Assembly: GCA_001769505.1 (NCBI GenBank)
Contig: MEOF01000045.1
Location: 1 to 42,717 of the forward strand
DNA from: Bacteroidetes bacterium GWF2_33_38
GTDB lineage: Bacteria > Bacteroidota > Bacteroidia > Bacteroidales > GWF2-33-38
DNA: 42,717 bases
Reading direction: 5' to 3'
A program made the position numbers and the translations under genes. Under the pieces are notes generated by a model. That model did no database searches. It was given only the letters and a program-made list of their open reading frames with translations, and was not told the DNA's origin. This document shows, piece after piece, positions 5,614 to 28,196 of this stretch. How positions within the stretch are numbered: the first letter of the stretch is position 1; the number at the start of each line of letters is the position of its first letter.

Positions 5614-7293
5614 CTATTTTGAAACATCAATGTCAATATTGTATTTTTTCAAAATATTTATAAACTTTGGATATTTAAAGTATTTTCTGTAAATTTCTTC
5701 TGTCTTTAGTATTCGTTCAGCCTGATTTTTAGGCATTCCAAAAGATAATGAAAGTTCAAAATTTTTATAAAATTCATTGTCATTTCCTGTTTCTGCATAT
5801 ATTTCAGCCAATGTTACTGTACTTGTGAAATCTCTTGGAGCTAACTCTAATGCTTTATATATAAATTCAAATGCTTTTTCATAATTCTTTTGAATTCTAT
5901 ATAAGTTTGCAATATTATTATATCCAGCTTCATAATCTGGATAATAATTTATTAATGATACATAGCATTTATAAGCCTCTTCATACATTTTTTTCTTGTA
6001 AAAAATACTGCCCAACCAAATTAGAGCATTTAAATTTTTATTATCTCGGCTTAACACATTCTTAAATACTAATTCTGCTTTGTCAACGTTACCAATATTT
6101 TTTAAAATTCCTCCTTTTGTACACAAATAATCATTAGATTCGGGATTTAATTCAATAGCTTTGTTTATTTTATTTAAAGCATCATCTAAATTTCCCAGTG
6201 AATATAAATTAACCGCTAATTGAGAATAAGCTTCGTCTGATTTTGGATTTAATTTAATGGCTTCTAATAATATTTCCAATTTTTGATTTTGATCAGAAAT
6301 TTTTAAAGCTTTTTCAATTAAATGTTCTGCTTTTTTTAAATTGTTAAACATTTCTTTTTCTTCAATCGACAATTTTTCTTTTGTCAACTCTTCAAATAGT
6401 TCTAAATAATCGGAAGAAATTGGGGTTTTTATTCTTGAACTTCTTTGCGTATTTTGATTACTAATCTCCTCTTTTTCAAACTGATAGCCCATTAACAATT
6501 TTTCTTCTATTTCTAATGTTGGATCAGAATGAATAACAAATAAGTTATTAAATTCAATTGGTAAATCATTTTCTTTTATAAATTTTCTTAAATCTTTATC
6601 AACTGCATTTACTGCTCGCAATTCAATTATTTTTTCATCAGGTCTTTCAAAATATGGAATTCTACATAAAACAAAATTCAACTTCGGTAATTTTCCTGTT
6701 AATGTATTCTCCGGTTGAGATAATGTTTTAATTATTTGTTTTATACCTTGAATATTTTCATCATTTTTAGCTGCCAATAAAACAATTTCATCAGCCATTA
6801 ATGACATTGTTATGCCTGAAATTTCCGAAATTCCAGTTCGTGAATCAATCAATAAATAATCTGGTTTCAATTCTTTTTTAATTCTTTCTTTCAAATCAAC
6901 AAACAAAGCAACTCCTTGACTTTCTTTTTTGTAAAACATTTTAATCCAATCAATTGAAAATAATGTTTTCCAATATTTATCAGAATAAACATTTCCAGCC
7001 GCAATAAAATCAATATCGGTGTATTTTTTATTGTTAAATTTTATGGGTGTAACATAATCATTAATTGATTTTGGTAAAGAATTCTTTTTGTTAAAATAAT
7101 CAATATAATCAACCAAACCTTGATTAATTCCTTTTATATTTTCTTTAAATTTATGATGCAACCCTGGAGCTTCTAAATCGAAATCAATAATACAAACCTT
7201 TTTTCCAAATTCCGAAAGTCGTTTTGCAATATTGGCAAGAGCTAAGCTTCTTCCAACGCCACCTTTGTATGAATAAAATGTTATAGTTTTCAT
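5614..7293 (-). CDS. ParA/MinD-like KGGVGR ATPase fused to TPR repeats
   Basis: The N-terminal ~280 residues form a SIMIBI-class ATPase. The deviant Walker A is YKGGVGRS (9-16), with the signature lysine K10 kept but arginine replacing the usual P-loop lysine. IDFDLEAPG (36-44) follows, and the Walker B strand is DYLLIDSRTG. After a linker containing QNTQRSSRIKTP come about six tetratricopeptide repeats (about 320-515; AIKLNPKSDEAYSQLA and KAIELNPESNDYL are clear examples). This is not a chromosome-partitioning ParA: there is no parB or parS nearby. It starts on the base after the higA stop codon, so it is translated with higA as a third member of the toxin-antitoxin operon. Likely role, inferred: a nucleotide-dependent switch with a TPR sensor or scaffold, possibly acting on the antitoxin. 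The region looks AT-richer than its housekeeping neighbours. Confidence 0.85.
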   Translation of the reverse strand: MKTITFYSYKGGVGRSLALANIAKRLSEFGKKVCIIDFDLEAPGLHHKFKENIKGINQGLVDYIDYFNKKNSLPKSINDYVTPIKFNNKKYTDIDFIAAGNVYSDKYWKTLFSIDWIKMFYKKESQGVALFVDLKERIKKELKPDYLLIDSRTGISEISGITMSLMADEIVLLAAKNDENIQGIKQIIKTLSQPENTLTGKLPKLNFVLCRIPYFERPDEKIIELRAVNAVDKDLRKFIKENDLPIEFNNLFVIHSDPTLEIEEKLLMGYQFEKEEISNQNTQRSSRIKTPISSDYLELFEELTKEKLSIEEKEMFNNLKKAEHLIEKALKISDQNQKLEILLEAIKLNPKSDEAYSQLAVNLYSLGNLDDALNKINKAIELNPESNDYLCTKGGILKNIGNVDKAELVFKNVLSRDNKNLNALIWLGSIFYKKKMYEEAYKCYVSLINYYPDYEAGYNNIANLYRIQKNYEKAFEFIYKALELAPRDFTSTVTLAEIYAETGNDNEFYKNFELSLSFGMPKNQAERILKTEEIYRKYFKYPKFINILKKYNIDIDVSK

Positions 7294-7800
7294 TTAAATA
7301 TTTATATGACAAACATTAAAAATAGCACCTCTTTTTAAAATATTGTTTGTGAAATTTTCCACATCTGACCAAATTGTTGATGGAAAATTAAATTTTACTT
7401 TTCTAGATATTTTGGGTTTAGTGCTTTCAACTAAATCATATTTAGTAATTAAAATATCTTGACTTATATTAAGTAATTTTGAAAATTCACGTATCATATT
7501 TTTTGAAAGGCTTCTTCTTTTATTCAAAACATCTGAAACCAAACCTTTACTTCCAATTATTGGAACAAGATCTTTGGGTTTTAGTTCCATATAAGCCATT
7601 TTTAATTTAATGATTTCTATTGGATTTCCTTCTTTAATAGGATAATGAATTTTATCATAAGCTTTAATTAATTTTTCAATTCTTTCAAATTCTTGAATTA
7701 ATTTTGGATTATTTTCAAATTCAGGATTATCTCCTAAATTTTCCAAAAATTTGACAGCATTTATATATTCTTCTTCGGTTTTAATTATTTTTAGTTCCAT
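7294..7800 (-). CDS. higA: HigA-type antitoxin with helix-turn-helix and C-terminal extension
   Basis: Residues 1-125 match the HigA/COG5499 antitoxin plan: an N-terminal helical region (IKTEEEYINAVKFLENL), the HYPI segment near residue 52, then an Xre-type helix-turn-helix (about 64-118) including LVPIIGSKGLVSDVLNKRR. It should neutralise HigB and repress the operon. At 168 residues it is roughly 40 longer than usual family members; the extra tail (after YDLVESTKPK) is basic, then has a WSDVENF segment. The gene follows higB by 14 bp and its TAA abuts the ATG of the ATPase gene. A 29-bp inverted repeat upstream of higB is the likely operator. Confidence 0.85.
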   Translation of the reverse strand: MELKIIKTEEEYINAVKFLENLGDNPEFENNPKLIQEFERIEKLIKAYDKIHYPIKEGNPIEIIKLKMAYMELKPKDLVPIIGSKGLVSDVLNKRRSLSKNMIREFSKLLNISQDILITKYDLVESTKPKISRKVKFNFPSTIWSDVENFTNNILKRGAIFNVCHINI

Positions 7801-7814
7801 TTGTTTAATCGTAT

Positions 7815-8171
7815 TTAATTAAATAAATCAATTTCATATTGTAATTTCTTTTTGCAAAGCTTTGTATATTCGGCGTGTGTTCCAATCCATTTTAGATACA
7901 ATTTACATTTCTTTAATTTAGGAAAAAATTGATATTTAATAATTATCCTTATGTTATTACCTTTCACATCAAAAACAGCCCTTTCGGGTGATTTTGAATT
8001 ATTATCTTTTTTAGGTAGTATATCCGTTGAATTAAAATCTCCTAAAATGTCTATTGGCTTTTCCCAATTACAGTTTTTCACGATAGAAATCCAAGCATAC
8101 AAAGCTTCAGCGTGTTGTGCGTGATTAACAGCAAATTCTTTTATATGTTTTTCTGAAACAATTTCTACCAT
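7815..8171 (-). CDS. higB: HigB-type mRNA interferase toxin
   Basis: The 118-residue protein fits the HigB_toxin family (RelE fold), whose members cut mRNA on the ribosome. Visible signatures are the helical start (VSEKHIKEFAVNHAQHAEAL), the basic core ERAVFDVKGNNIRIIIKY (63-80), and the family hallmark KWIGTHAEYTKL (94-105). The segment between about residues 48 and 62 (STDILPKKDNNSKSP) is longer than in many homologues. Toxin-first order, 14-bp spacing to higA and an adjacent operator all suit a type II higBA module. Nothing in the frame suggests inactivation. Confidence 0.85.
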   Translation of the reverse strand: MVEIVSEKHIKEFAVNHAQHAEALYAWISIVKNCNWEKPIDILGDFNSTDILPKKDNNSKSPERAVFDVKGNNIRIIIKYQFFPKLKKCKLYLKWIGTHAEYTKLCKKKLQYEIDLFN

Positions 8172-8190
8172 TTTAAATTCTAATATTCTG

Positions 8191-8198
8191 CAAATATA
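8191..8198 (-). promoter_or_regulatory. -7 promoter element of the higBA-ATPase operon
   Basis: TATATTTG on the minus strand is an exact TAnnTTTG match, 19 bp upstream of the higB ATG. No good TTG lies at the -33 position; that place is taken by the operator-like inverted repeat. Confidence 0.7.
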
Positions 8199-8200
8199 TA

Positions 8201-8229
8201 TTAAAAGTTTACATATTGCGAACTTTTAA
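8201..8229. promoter_or_regulatory. 29-bp inverted repeat, probable HigA operator
   Basis: Perfect 9-bp arms TTAAAAGTT (8201-8209) and AACTTTTAA (8221-8229) flank an 11-bp centre that keeps further partial symmetry (GTTnnCAnnnTGnnAAC). It begins 2 bp upstream of the -7 element, so a bound repressor would cover the -33 region of higB. That is the arrangement expected for antitoxin autoregulation. It is also upstream of the ileS promoter at 8301 but about 70 bp away. Confidence 0.7.
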
Positions 8230-26477: not shown

Positions 26478-28196
26478 TTACTGAATACTTATCTTGTTTG
26501 TACACAAAACATTATTTCCAGAAATAACTTTCACAAGATAAACACCTTTTGAAAACCCGCTAACATCAAACGCTTTGATAACATTCCCTGCATGTACTTG
26601 ATAAGAATCAGATAACATTTCTTTTCCTGTAATATCAAAAATACTTAAATTTACATCGCATTCAATATCGGAAAAAATATTTACGAATATTTCATTATCC
26701 GCAGGATTTGGATAAACTCTGAACGAAACATTGGTTACTTGTGATAAAATCCCAGTTGCCATTCCAATTACAAAAACATGAGGATCGGGAGCACCTATAT
26801 AAGGGTGATTCGACGTTTTAGACGTATTGGTTTCAGCATGAATATAGTACCCAACTTCACTATTTTCGGGAAGTTCAGGAATTATGCCTCTATAAGTTGA
26901 GCCACCAATATTTGACATGCTTACTTCACTAAAAACTCCACCGTTGACCTGATATCGCAAAACAGCCGATGTAACCGTTGCCGAAGAATAAGGAATAATT
27001 TCTGCCTCAATTGTGTACTGTGTTGCGTAAGTCACATTGTTCAATGTTGGCATATGAAAAATATGCAGCATATCGAAATCGGGAACTTCGTGTGCACGAC
27101 AATGTAAAGCATCTGTAGATTCCCATGGTGTTTCAGGATTTTCGTAAAAGCCAATTACTTCATATCCAGGCATTGCAGTCTGATAAACAGCAATTGCATC
27201 GTCGTTCCAAGTCGACCCCGTTCCATCAACAATGGGAACAAAAACACGATTGTTTAGAATTAACGAATTGGTATATGGTTGCCCATTGGGACTATAGGTT
27301 CTGAATACCTGATAATTGGTTCCATAAGAACTAATTTGATTTGACCAATATTCAGCCATAGCTTCATATTCAGAATATTGCGAGTTGGTTGTAGCTACTT
27401 GTCCTATTAATATTTTATCGACATCGAGAAACTTTCCCCAACAATCAATGTGTTTAATATAATCTCCCAGCGGATCGGCAGTTATATGATAATTATTTAT
27501 TCCCATATAATCTTCGATTTTTGTCTGGATTGCTGATGTGGTCAAGGTTTCATTTTCTTCTTCAACAAGGTCGGTTGAAGCTCCTGCATACATTCCATCG
27601 CACATAAAATTACCACCTGTTTGCATTAAGTCCATTCCATATATATCAAGCCCATAGGCATTTGCAAATTCAACAGGAATTTCGTCGTCGTTCGGACGAG
27701 AGGGTCTATCGTATGGAAAATCAAGTACGCAAATTTCGTTATTTACGGCAACAAACCAAGGGCTATAATCGCGAGACCAATATGAGTCAGCAGGAGCAAT
27801 AAAAAATTCGCAGTTTGCCGTGTTTACGCCATTTGTACTATAAAAATCGAGCACATCGGCTTGTTGTGCACCATCTTCAACTATAGTAATAACTTTTACG
27901 GTTTCAGAATACGAAGAAATTAAATCAACAGGAATTCCAAAATATCCATCTCCATACCATTCGTCAACCAAATAAGTAACAATAACCGCTTGCATTGGCT
28001 CAAATTCAGCGATGGCTCTAACTGTACCCGATGGAGGAGCCGTTTCATTAAAACTTTTTATAGATTTTGTGCCTTTTTCAAGTTCATCTGTTGACAGCAT
28101 GTGATGTTTACCTTGAAAAGTGCTTTTTATTTGTTCTTGAGAAAAAGCACATGTGCAAATCAATAATGCAACGATAAAAGAATATAATCTTGTCAT
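26478..28196 (-). CDS. Secreted peptidylarginine-deiminase-like enzyme with T9SS tail
   Basis: The 572-residue protein has a signal peptide (ending AFSQ), an agmatine/peptidylarginine deiminase domain (about 55-380), an Ig-like segment (about 390-475) and a T9SS sorting tail from about 495 (VYPNPADNEI). Probable catalytic residues are visible: D143 in WSRDYSPWF, H249 in KHIDCWGKF, N310 in YTNSLI and the nucleophile C366 in DALHCRAHE. R164 and R167 in YDRPSRPNDD resemble the substrate-clamping arginines of Porphyromonas PPAD. PPAD turns C-terminal arginine into citrulline; this protein has the same domain order. Whether it acts on peptides or on agmatine/free arginine cannot be told from sequence. 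Own promoter. Confidence 0.9.
   Translation of the reverse strand: MTRLYSFIVALLICTCAFSQEQIKSTFQGKHHMLSTDELEKGTKSIKSFNETAPPSGTVRAIAEFEPMQAVIVTYLVDEWYGDGYFGIPVDLISSYSETVKVITIVEDGAQQADVLDFYSTNGVNTANCEFFIAPADSYWSRDYSPWFVAVNNEICVLDFPYDRPSRPNDDEIPVEFANAYGLDIYGMDLMQTGGNFMCDGMYAGASTDLVEEENETLTTSAIQTKIEDYMGINNYHITADPLGDYIKHIDCWGKFLDVDKILIGQVATTNSQYSEYEAMAEYWSNQISSYGTNYQVFRTYSPNGQPYTNSLILNNRVFVPIVDGTGSTWNDDAIAVYQTAMPGYEVIGFYENPETPWESTDALHCRAHEVPDFDMLHIFHMPTLNNVTYATQYTIEAEIIPYSSATVTSAVLRYQVNGGVFSEVSMSNIGGSTYRGIIPELPENSEVGYYIHAETNTSKTSNHPYIGAPDPHVFVIGMATGILSQVTNVSFRVYPNPADNEIFVNIFSDIECDVNLSIFDITGKEMLSDSYQVHAGNVIKAFDVSGFSKGVYLVKVISGNNVLCTNKISIQ

Follow-up and report, generated by a model that had tools for sequence, protein, structure and literature searches.

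In the toxin-antitoxin-chaperone (TAC) systems, a C-terminal extension of the antitoxin HigA, called ChAD, confers dependence on a SecB-like chaperone (PMC6377645), and in PD-lambda-2 (Vassallo 2022) HigA carries a fused C-terminal peptidase and the third gene is a relative of a P4 phage antitoxin (PMC9519451). Moreover, in the omega-epsilon-zeta and delta system of pSM19035 the toxin-antitoxin (TA) genes are functionally linked to a ParA-type ATPase, Delta, which is both a partition ATPase and a co-activator with Omega (PMC4803016), and MinD/ParA-like domains predicted to be inactive occur in VMAP and peptide-processing conflict systems (PMC7159879), as given in the accessible portions of these four papers. 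Here we describe a locus on contig MEOF01000045.1 of Bacteroidetes bacterium GWF2_33_38, of which positions 1-42,717 of the forward strand form the window, that is, the whole stretch of 42,717 nucleotides that was analysed. It comprises a higB-like toxin gene, a higA-like antitoxin gene and a gene for a MinD/ParA-fold ATPase with the P-loop motif KGGVGR and C-terminal tetratricopeptide repeats (TPRs). The unit is conserved, the C-terminal tail of its HigA was seen only together with the ATPase, the same ATPase family is reused across several TA types, and the antitoxin tails share a weak motif. By analogy with TAC, we consider the locus, with some reserve, to be probably a three-part type II toxin-antitoxin-ATPase operon, in which the ATPase would bind the HigA tail and gate the neutralisation of the toxin.

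Gene organization and protein assignment

The features of the locus are as follows.

8205..8225, no strand assigned: 21-bp palindrome AAGTTTACATATTGCGAACTT, candidate operator, 33 bp upstream of higB
7815..8171, minus strand: higB-like toxin gene, 118 amino acids (aa); PF09907 HigB_toxin, PADLOC PD-Lambda-2_A match
7294..7800, minus strand: higA-like antitoxin gene, 168 aa; PADLOC PD-Lambda-2_B match, profile match to HigA structures 5ycl/5ifg
7294..7416, minus strand: coding sequence of the HigA C-terminal tail (residues 129-168 and stop), containing ILKRGAIFN
5614..7293, minus strand: gene for the KGGVGR MinD/ParA-fold ATPase (residues 1-309) with TPR repeats (~310-550), 559 aa

The higB frame begins with ATG at 8171 and its stop ends at 7815; a gap of 14 bp (7801-7814) separates it from higA, which runs from 7800 to 7294 and terminates in TAA, and the ATG of the ATPase gene starts at the very next base, 7293, its frame ending at 5614. 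The contiguous minus-strand unit read in the initial annotation therefore agrees with the frames and spacings, all three genes being intact. HigB matches PF09907 in the Pfam scan with 64 bits (cut-off 27, E 1.6e-17) and also the PADLOC model PD-Lambda-2_A. The same scan gave no family above cut-off for HigA, which matches positions 1-128 of the 402 of PADLOC PD-Lambda-2_B (E 2.1e-30), and a profile built from the five HigA proteins of the triplets described below aligns at positions 6-113 with 5ycl and 5ifg, two structures of HigA antitoxins (E ~4e-4). A HigA-type antitoxin directly 3' of a PF09907 HigB is the gene arrangement of a HigBA type II TA pair, and it is found here.

The third protein matches NF047398 (AAA_KGGVGR) with 169.7 bits at a cut-off of 90, and several TPR models match it in the Pfam scan. 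In its AlphaFold model, which has a predicted local distance difference test (pLDDT) score of 91.6, residues 1 to ~308 align to FleN (5j1j) and MinD (3r9i) with Z 23.8 at 2.8-2.9 A over ~240 residues in VIA-align, from which the fold of the ATPase domain was judged because TPR proteins fill the top of the Foldseek list. Delta of pSM19035 (2oze, Z 20.4) and a MinD-MinE peptide complex are also among the VIA-align matches. The C-terminal part resembles designed TPRs and OGT in Foldseek, and the helix pairs at ~310-517 of the model fit the about six TPRs counted in the initial annotation. The arginine noted there in place of the P-loop lysine proved to be a family trait: all 44 aligned ATPases have both R15 and K10, and R is the last residue of the P-loop motif in every one of the 78 ATPase open reading frames (ORFs) from the genome-contig loci described below.

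Comparison with described systems

The locus resembles TAC (HigBAC, MqsRAC and CmdTAC) in having three genes, in a third protein common to different TA types, and in an antitoxin C-terminal extension absent from two-gene relatives, which the window's HigA likewise possesses (TAC features from the accessible portions of PMC6377645 and PMC9519451). It differs in the tail motif and in the third protein, which belongs to NF047398, has the MinD/FleN-type fold of Z 23.8 and carries TPRs instead of being SecB-like; as a SecB-like chaperone is absent, membership of TAC in the strict sense was rejected. PD-lambda-2 also has three genes with a HigB-like one first and a HigA-like one second, and its PADLOC A and B models match the window's proteins. 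However, membership of PD-lambda-2 was rejected, as the window's 168-aa HigA has no peptidase and its match ends at position 128 of PD-Lambda-2_B; the third component differs as well, being a KGGVGR ATPase that no PD-Lambda-2 model matched. In PADLOC PDC-M28, a HEPN-type A protein is combined with a KGGVGR-type B protein, and the window's KGGVGR domain matches PDC-M28B (positions 129-343 of 438); but its partner is HigBA, the TPRs follow the ATPase domain, and neither HigA nor HigB matches the HEPN-type PDC-M28A. Unlike in pSM19035, the ATPase gene of the window comes third in the operon, and its product has TPRs and an arginine P-loop. As to VMAP and peptide-processing systems, neither HigBA nor tailed antitoxins are described beside the MinD/ParA-like domain in the accessible portion of PMC7159879, and the name 'HigB' was not found in its main text.

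No description of a TA-KGGVGR ATPase arrangement was found in the literature searched, outside which lay most subscription papers and all bioRxiv preprints, nor is it described in the accessible portions of PMC9519451, PMC11980606, PMC10865869, PMC6377645, PMC7159879 and PMC4803016. In the accessible text of the literature searched, 'KGGVGR' never started a word and occurred as an inner string only in a review of mushroom lectins, and the name 'PDC-M28' was not found in the small set of papers checked for it.

Conservation of the triplet and the HigA tail

Five HigB-HigA-ATPase triplets with the same gene order and tight spacing were found, namely those of the window, of loci L003, L207 and L208 from three further genomes of its taxonomic order, and of Chitinophaga japonensis (L024), the identity of their ATPases to that of the window being 73% in L003, 59% in L207, 62% in L208 (cut by the contig end) and ~43% in L024. 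In an order-wide search of 295 genomes, an ATPase match (E 1e-20) was obtained in nine, and four of these nine, the window's included, have the HigBA triplet. The flanking genes, named by eye, differ among the three triplet loci inspected: a methyltransferase-like and an ileS-like gene in the window, a secreted glycoside-hydrolase-like and an addB-like gene in the second, and a gcvT-like and an AAA-type gene in the third. Thus, of the two things that the initial annotation had proposed to look for, triplets with conserved order exist, whereas the genes flanking the window's triplet form no evident defence island. The methyltransferase-like neighbour was sought in G001, G002 and G049 and not found (no positive control), hence no empty insertion site is shown.

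In a sample of 395 Bacteroidota genomes, a HigA match was present in 100, at 134 places in total, and only one of the 134, the window's own, adjoins the ATPase, as judged by eye against the list of 35 NF047398 sites (E 1e-15 or better) in these genomes. The proposed three-gene unit is therefore conserved where it occurs, but HigBA generally goes without the ATPase. The initial annotation had named homologous higBA pairs that almost never carry the ATPase as a sign of chance adjacency, and as worded this is what the count gives; that sign concerns the wrong pair of features, because the tail tracks the ATPase and HigBA does not.

HigA proteins linked to the ATPase have 165-173 aa in all five triplets, while all 29 ATPase-less homologues inspected have at most 128 aa (28 proteins of 116-128 aa and one 78-aa fragment); these control loci, L162 among them, were the best-scoring HigA matches from the 395-genome sample, and no KGGVGx frame lies within 1.5 kb downstream of any of the 29. 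Residues 129-168 of the window's HigA extend past the end of every one of the 29, and the unusual tail of about 40 residues reported initially is thereby substantiated. The tail was found only together with the ATPase (5/5 linked versus 0/29 unlinked HigA). Similarly, MqsA proteins linked to the ATPase have 171-297 aa (n=38; longest-ORF starts were used, and the upper values may be inflated), whereas 15 of 16 control MqsA proteins have 129-152 aa and one (L173) has 170 aa, with the ATPase downstream in none of the 16. The MqsA controls comprised 30 loci, of which the best 16 (L163-L178) were used for the tail tests; two of the other 14 gave no hit, and in none of the remainder is the ATPase downstream. 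The link is thus one of the ATPase with tailed antitoxins, not of the ATPase with HigBA as such.

Partner genes of the KGGVGR ATPases

The genome-contig loci are the best 80 of at least 578 ATPase relatives, and the counts here refer to them. The ATPase ORF was recognised in 78 (L062 and L070 counted as misses) and an upstream gene in 77 (L050 counted as a miss, the upstream gene not being recovered), and in 72 of the 77 the end of the upstream gene falls between -10 and +25 bp relative to the start of the ATPase. The partners are MqsA-like in 35 loci, an unnamed pair designated 'DGWA' in 16, DUF6932 with XRE in five, TIR-like in three, Gp49 with XRE in two, HigBA in one, BrnA in one, and unclassified or missed in 17. 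The labels were given to representatives by family libraries and to other members by BLASTP at 1e-4, except TIR, which was named by eye; the families identified by tools are HigB, MqsA, DUF6932 with a helix-turn-helix (HTH) protein, Gp49 and BrnA. Besides HigBA, this ATPase family follows several other TA types. It could be supposed that a common TA pair came to lie beside an unrelated ATPase gene by chance, in line with the single ATPase-adjoining place among 134 HigA places in the phylum. However, five same-order, tightly spaced triplets, the confinement of the tail to ATPase-linked HigA and the close spacing in 72 of 77 loci, other TA types included, make this highly improbable, and it was rejected on the triplets and on the wider ATPase family behind other TA types.

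A tree built from 71 ATPase domains shows 11 changes of partner label, the minimum being 7 and the mean after shuffling 30.5. The HigBA, the DUF6932/XRE and two DGWA loci fall into one group (support 94/99), the BrnA locus is nested in DGWA (100/95 with L035), and the tree takes in the archaeal loci L029 and L033. Some labels are by eye only: HicA/HicB in L019, where Pfam matched neither protein; BrnT in L037, where NCBIfam gave nothing and no Pfam scan was made; and the HTH protein that precedes the ATPase at L046 and L051.

Several partners are of interest in their own right. In L029 (930-2439), an unnamed pair of ~290 aa and ~200 aa directly precedes the KGGVGR ATPase, and pairs of this DGWA type are also present at L030-L036, L039-L041, L043, L044, L047, L052 and L055, the hosts being bacteria and two archaea. 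No Pfam or NCBIfam family was found for the L029 pair, nor a convincing Pfam match for the larger proteins of the 16 loci, and the pair is possibly a new TA type. In L057 (3063-3452) and 21 relatives, a protein of ~120 aa with a conserved W, YxK and a near-terminal SFH stands in the toxin position before a tailed MqsA and has no convincing Pfam or PDB match. In L072 (900-5584) and L097 (1978-5995), an HTH-like gene and a carbon-nitrogen hydrolase-like gene precede the ATPase, CN_hydrolase being detected in L097 and L072 being assigned through its BLASTP cluster. In one Bacteroidota family (f76; L106-L110, L117-L133), KGGVGR proteins accompany HEPN-like or HTH-like genes (by eye), and some of the HTH-like partners end in RAGSYLRKSA-like tails.

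Relatives of the ATPase also occur on mobile elements. In three of eight plasmid regions opened, an annotated MqsA-family antitoxin stands before the ATPase, HigBA does so in none of the eight, and annotated recombinases lie near the ATPase in five. The ATPase had no match among 50,697 phage records at E 1e-5; relatives are carried by 14 viral contigs, with MqsA-type and HEPN-like versions. On four viral contigs from IMG/VR (L193, L194, L195 and L197), the KGGVGR ATPase comes after an MqsA-like antitoxin whose tail reads, for example, AQSFSLRP. The viral versions and the plasmid versions near recombinases fit mobile conflict systems.

The plasmid relatives and the nearby recombinases, together with the MinD/ParA fold and the match to pSM19035 Delta, would also agree with a third gene for ParA-type partition or maintenance, so that the locus would be a mobile-element stability cassette with TA and ParA as mere neighbours, as in pSM19035. 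Nevertheless, the deviant Walker A motif of ParA carries the P-loop lysine (KGGVGK), in the place of which all 44 aligned ATPases have R15. Moreover, TPRs are fused to the window's protein, the neighbouring genes of the window's triplet and of the two others inspected have, by eye, an ordinary chromosomal look, and such a cassette does not predict that antitoxin tails go with the ATPase. We regard this explanation as quite improbable.

Shared C-terminal motif of the antitoxins

Across the antitoxin families, the tails follow a weak consensus, ~[IV]RxR[GR][SF]L[LF]. A motif trained on DGWA tails alone recovers the HigA tails (combined shuffle P 1e-5), the matches being ILKRGAIFN in the window, VSQRGSIFN in L003 and VRKTGMLMA in L024. 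In a held-out-family test of 73 tails versus 192 control C-termini, the area under the curve was 0.82 at motif width 9 and 0.80-0.81 at width 10; the tails also outscore 44 ATPase-less HigA/MqsA tails and 465 internal segments, and the medians are positive in all six partner groups. A separate test at width 8 was weaker (0.74). Two HigA tails kept out of training scored z 2.1 each (group P 0.011). In the window, the R of RGAIFN is encoded ~39 nt upstream of the ATPase start codon, a distance that makes an artefact of the ribosome-binding site unlikely.

Beyond the TA types, a second small HEPN group (two members near-identical) and an HTH group gave P 0.017 and P 0.035, respectively. These partners bring in another explanation, namely that the ATPase is the sensor or switch of a wider effector family for which the TA pair is one payload, and that it is a release factor which phage would trigger and which acts on the TA complex as a whole, not an antitoxin stabiliser. 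In its favour, the KGGVGR ATPase follows a HEPN gene in L023 (PADLOC PDC-M28A) and L021 (PF05168, just above cut-off), TIR-like genes directly in L087, L096 and L098 (by eye), and the HTH and CN-hydrolase genes in L097, no antitoxin being evident there, and the viral contigs carry MqsA-type as well as HEPN-like versions. On the other hand, the tail motif reaches significance neither in the TIR partners (P 0.30) nor in the HEPN set from viruses and plasmids (P 0.67), and in the TA types it is the tailed antitoxin that is encoded beside the ATPase. Because the antitoxin both adjoins the ATPase and bears the tail, it is indicated as the contact, and we hold the effector-switch explanation to be unlikely, if a serious one.

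Proposed mechanism and points against it

According to the toxin-antitoxin-ATPase reading, HigB would be, as its family suggests, an mRNA interferase that targets translation, and HigA may neutralise it and repress the operon via the palindrome before higB. The pattern of this palindrome (8205-8225) has no second match in the window when two mismatches are allowed (0.03 expected), and in L003 (L211), L207 (L212) and L208 related palindromes with 0, 3 and 1 mismatches precede higB by 35, 30 and 31 bp, respectively; none was found before higB in L024, and such a palindrome is thus present in four of the five triplets. The pattern was drawn from the very loci scored, and an overlapping inverted repeat at the window's site was found first, without using the pattern. 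As a candidate operator, the palindrome would likely serve autoregulation by HigA. The HigA tail would be a recognition tag for the ATPase/TPR protein, which may bind it depending on its nucleotide or ligand state and so determine whether the antitoxin keeps its fold, its stability or its capacity to hold the toxin, a role likened to that of the SecB-like chaperone in TAC. Loss or a changed state of the ATPase, for example through a phage product, might then release HigB, the trigger, with the sensing of stress or phage proposed initially, and the defence role being conjecture. Binding, gating and trigger are the parts of this scheme that we infer.

Two docking sites for the tail are possible, one in the MinD-like domain and one in the TPR superhelix. 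Binding of C-terminal peptides is common among TPRs, and docking of the HigA tail on the TPRs had been proposed initially; partner peptides are also bound by MinD-type ATPases, as in the MinD-MinE complex among the VIA-align matches. In an AlphaFold model of HigA and ATPase joined through the read-through TAA, with the misaligned L024 HigA row left out of the alignment, residues 124-167 stayed below pLDDT 50.

Several observations weigh against the toxin-antitoxin-ATPase reading. This fused model places the tail without confidence, from a shallow alignment, a single tail sequence and a covalent join. The commonest TPR model is matched by 16 of the 44 aligned ATPases only, so docking may not generally take place on the TPRs; CbiA, a MinD/ParA-type model, is matched by 43 of the 44. 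The P-loop lysine corresponding to R15 is required for MinD activity, and because it is replaced, ATP hydrolysis by the R15 protein is doubtful and, judged from its motif, uncertain. Furthermore, the control MqsA L173 has an extension without an ATPase. As regards the motif, the MqsA-trained version recovers the HigA tails at P 0.03 only, the tails of the HTH/CN-hydrolase partners (n=4) are recovered by neither the DGWA- nor the MqsA-trained motif (P 0.47), the HigA tails differ from control HigA at P 0.0006-0.08 depending on motif width and seed, and those of L207 and L208 do not score significantly above shuffled versions of themselves. In addition, the P values of the held-out test are too small, because members within groups are related, and the groups are not wholly independent, HigA, MqsA and XRE sharing helix-turn-helix regions, outside which the tail lies.

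Elsewhere in the window, at 26478-28196 on the minus strand, a secreted, peptidylarginine/agmatine deiminase-like protein with a C-terminal sorting domain was recognised by eye only.

Considering the partner exchange, KGGVGR MinD-like ATPases might define a general tripartite TA class of bacteria and archaea, in which at least five TA types would each have acquired the same antitoxin C-terminal tag, placing the toxin under one partner-swapping ATPase; we see the chances for and against this extension as evenly balanced. What triggers chromosomal TA systems is a long-standing question, and with TAC it emerged that a chaperone can serve as the point of triggering. If the toxin-antitoxin-ATPase reading is true, an ATPase-based third component reused in HigBA, MqsA-type, BrnA-type and further modules, together with a tag on the antitoxin, would be another solution to triggering, and it would give a role to a large ATPase family that is now named by its motif alone.

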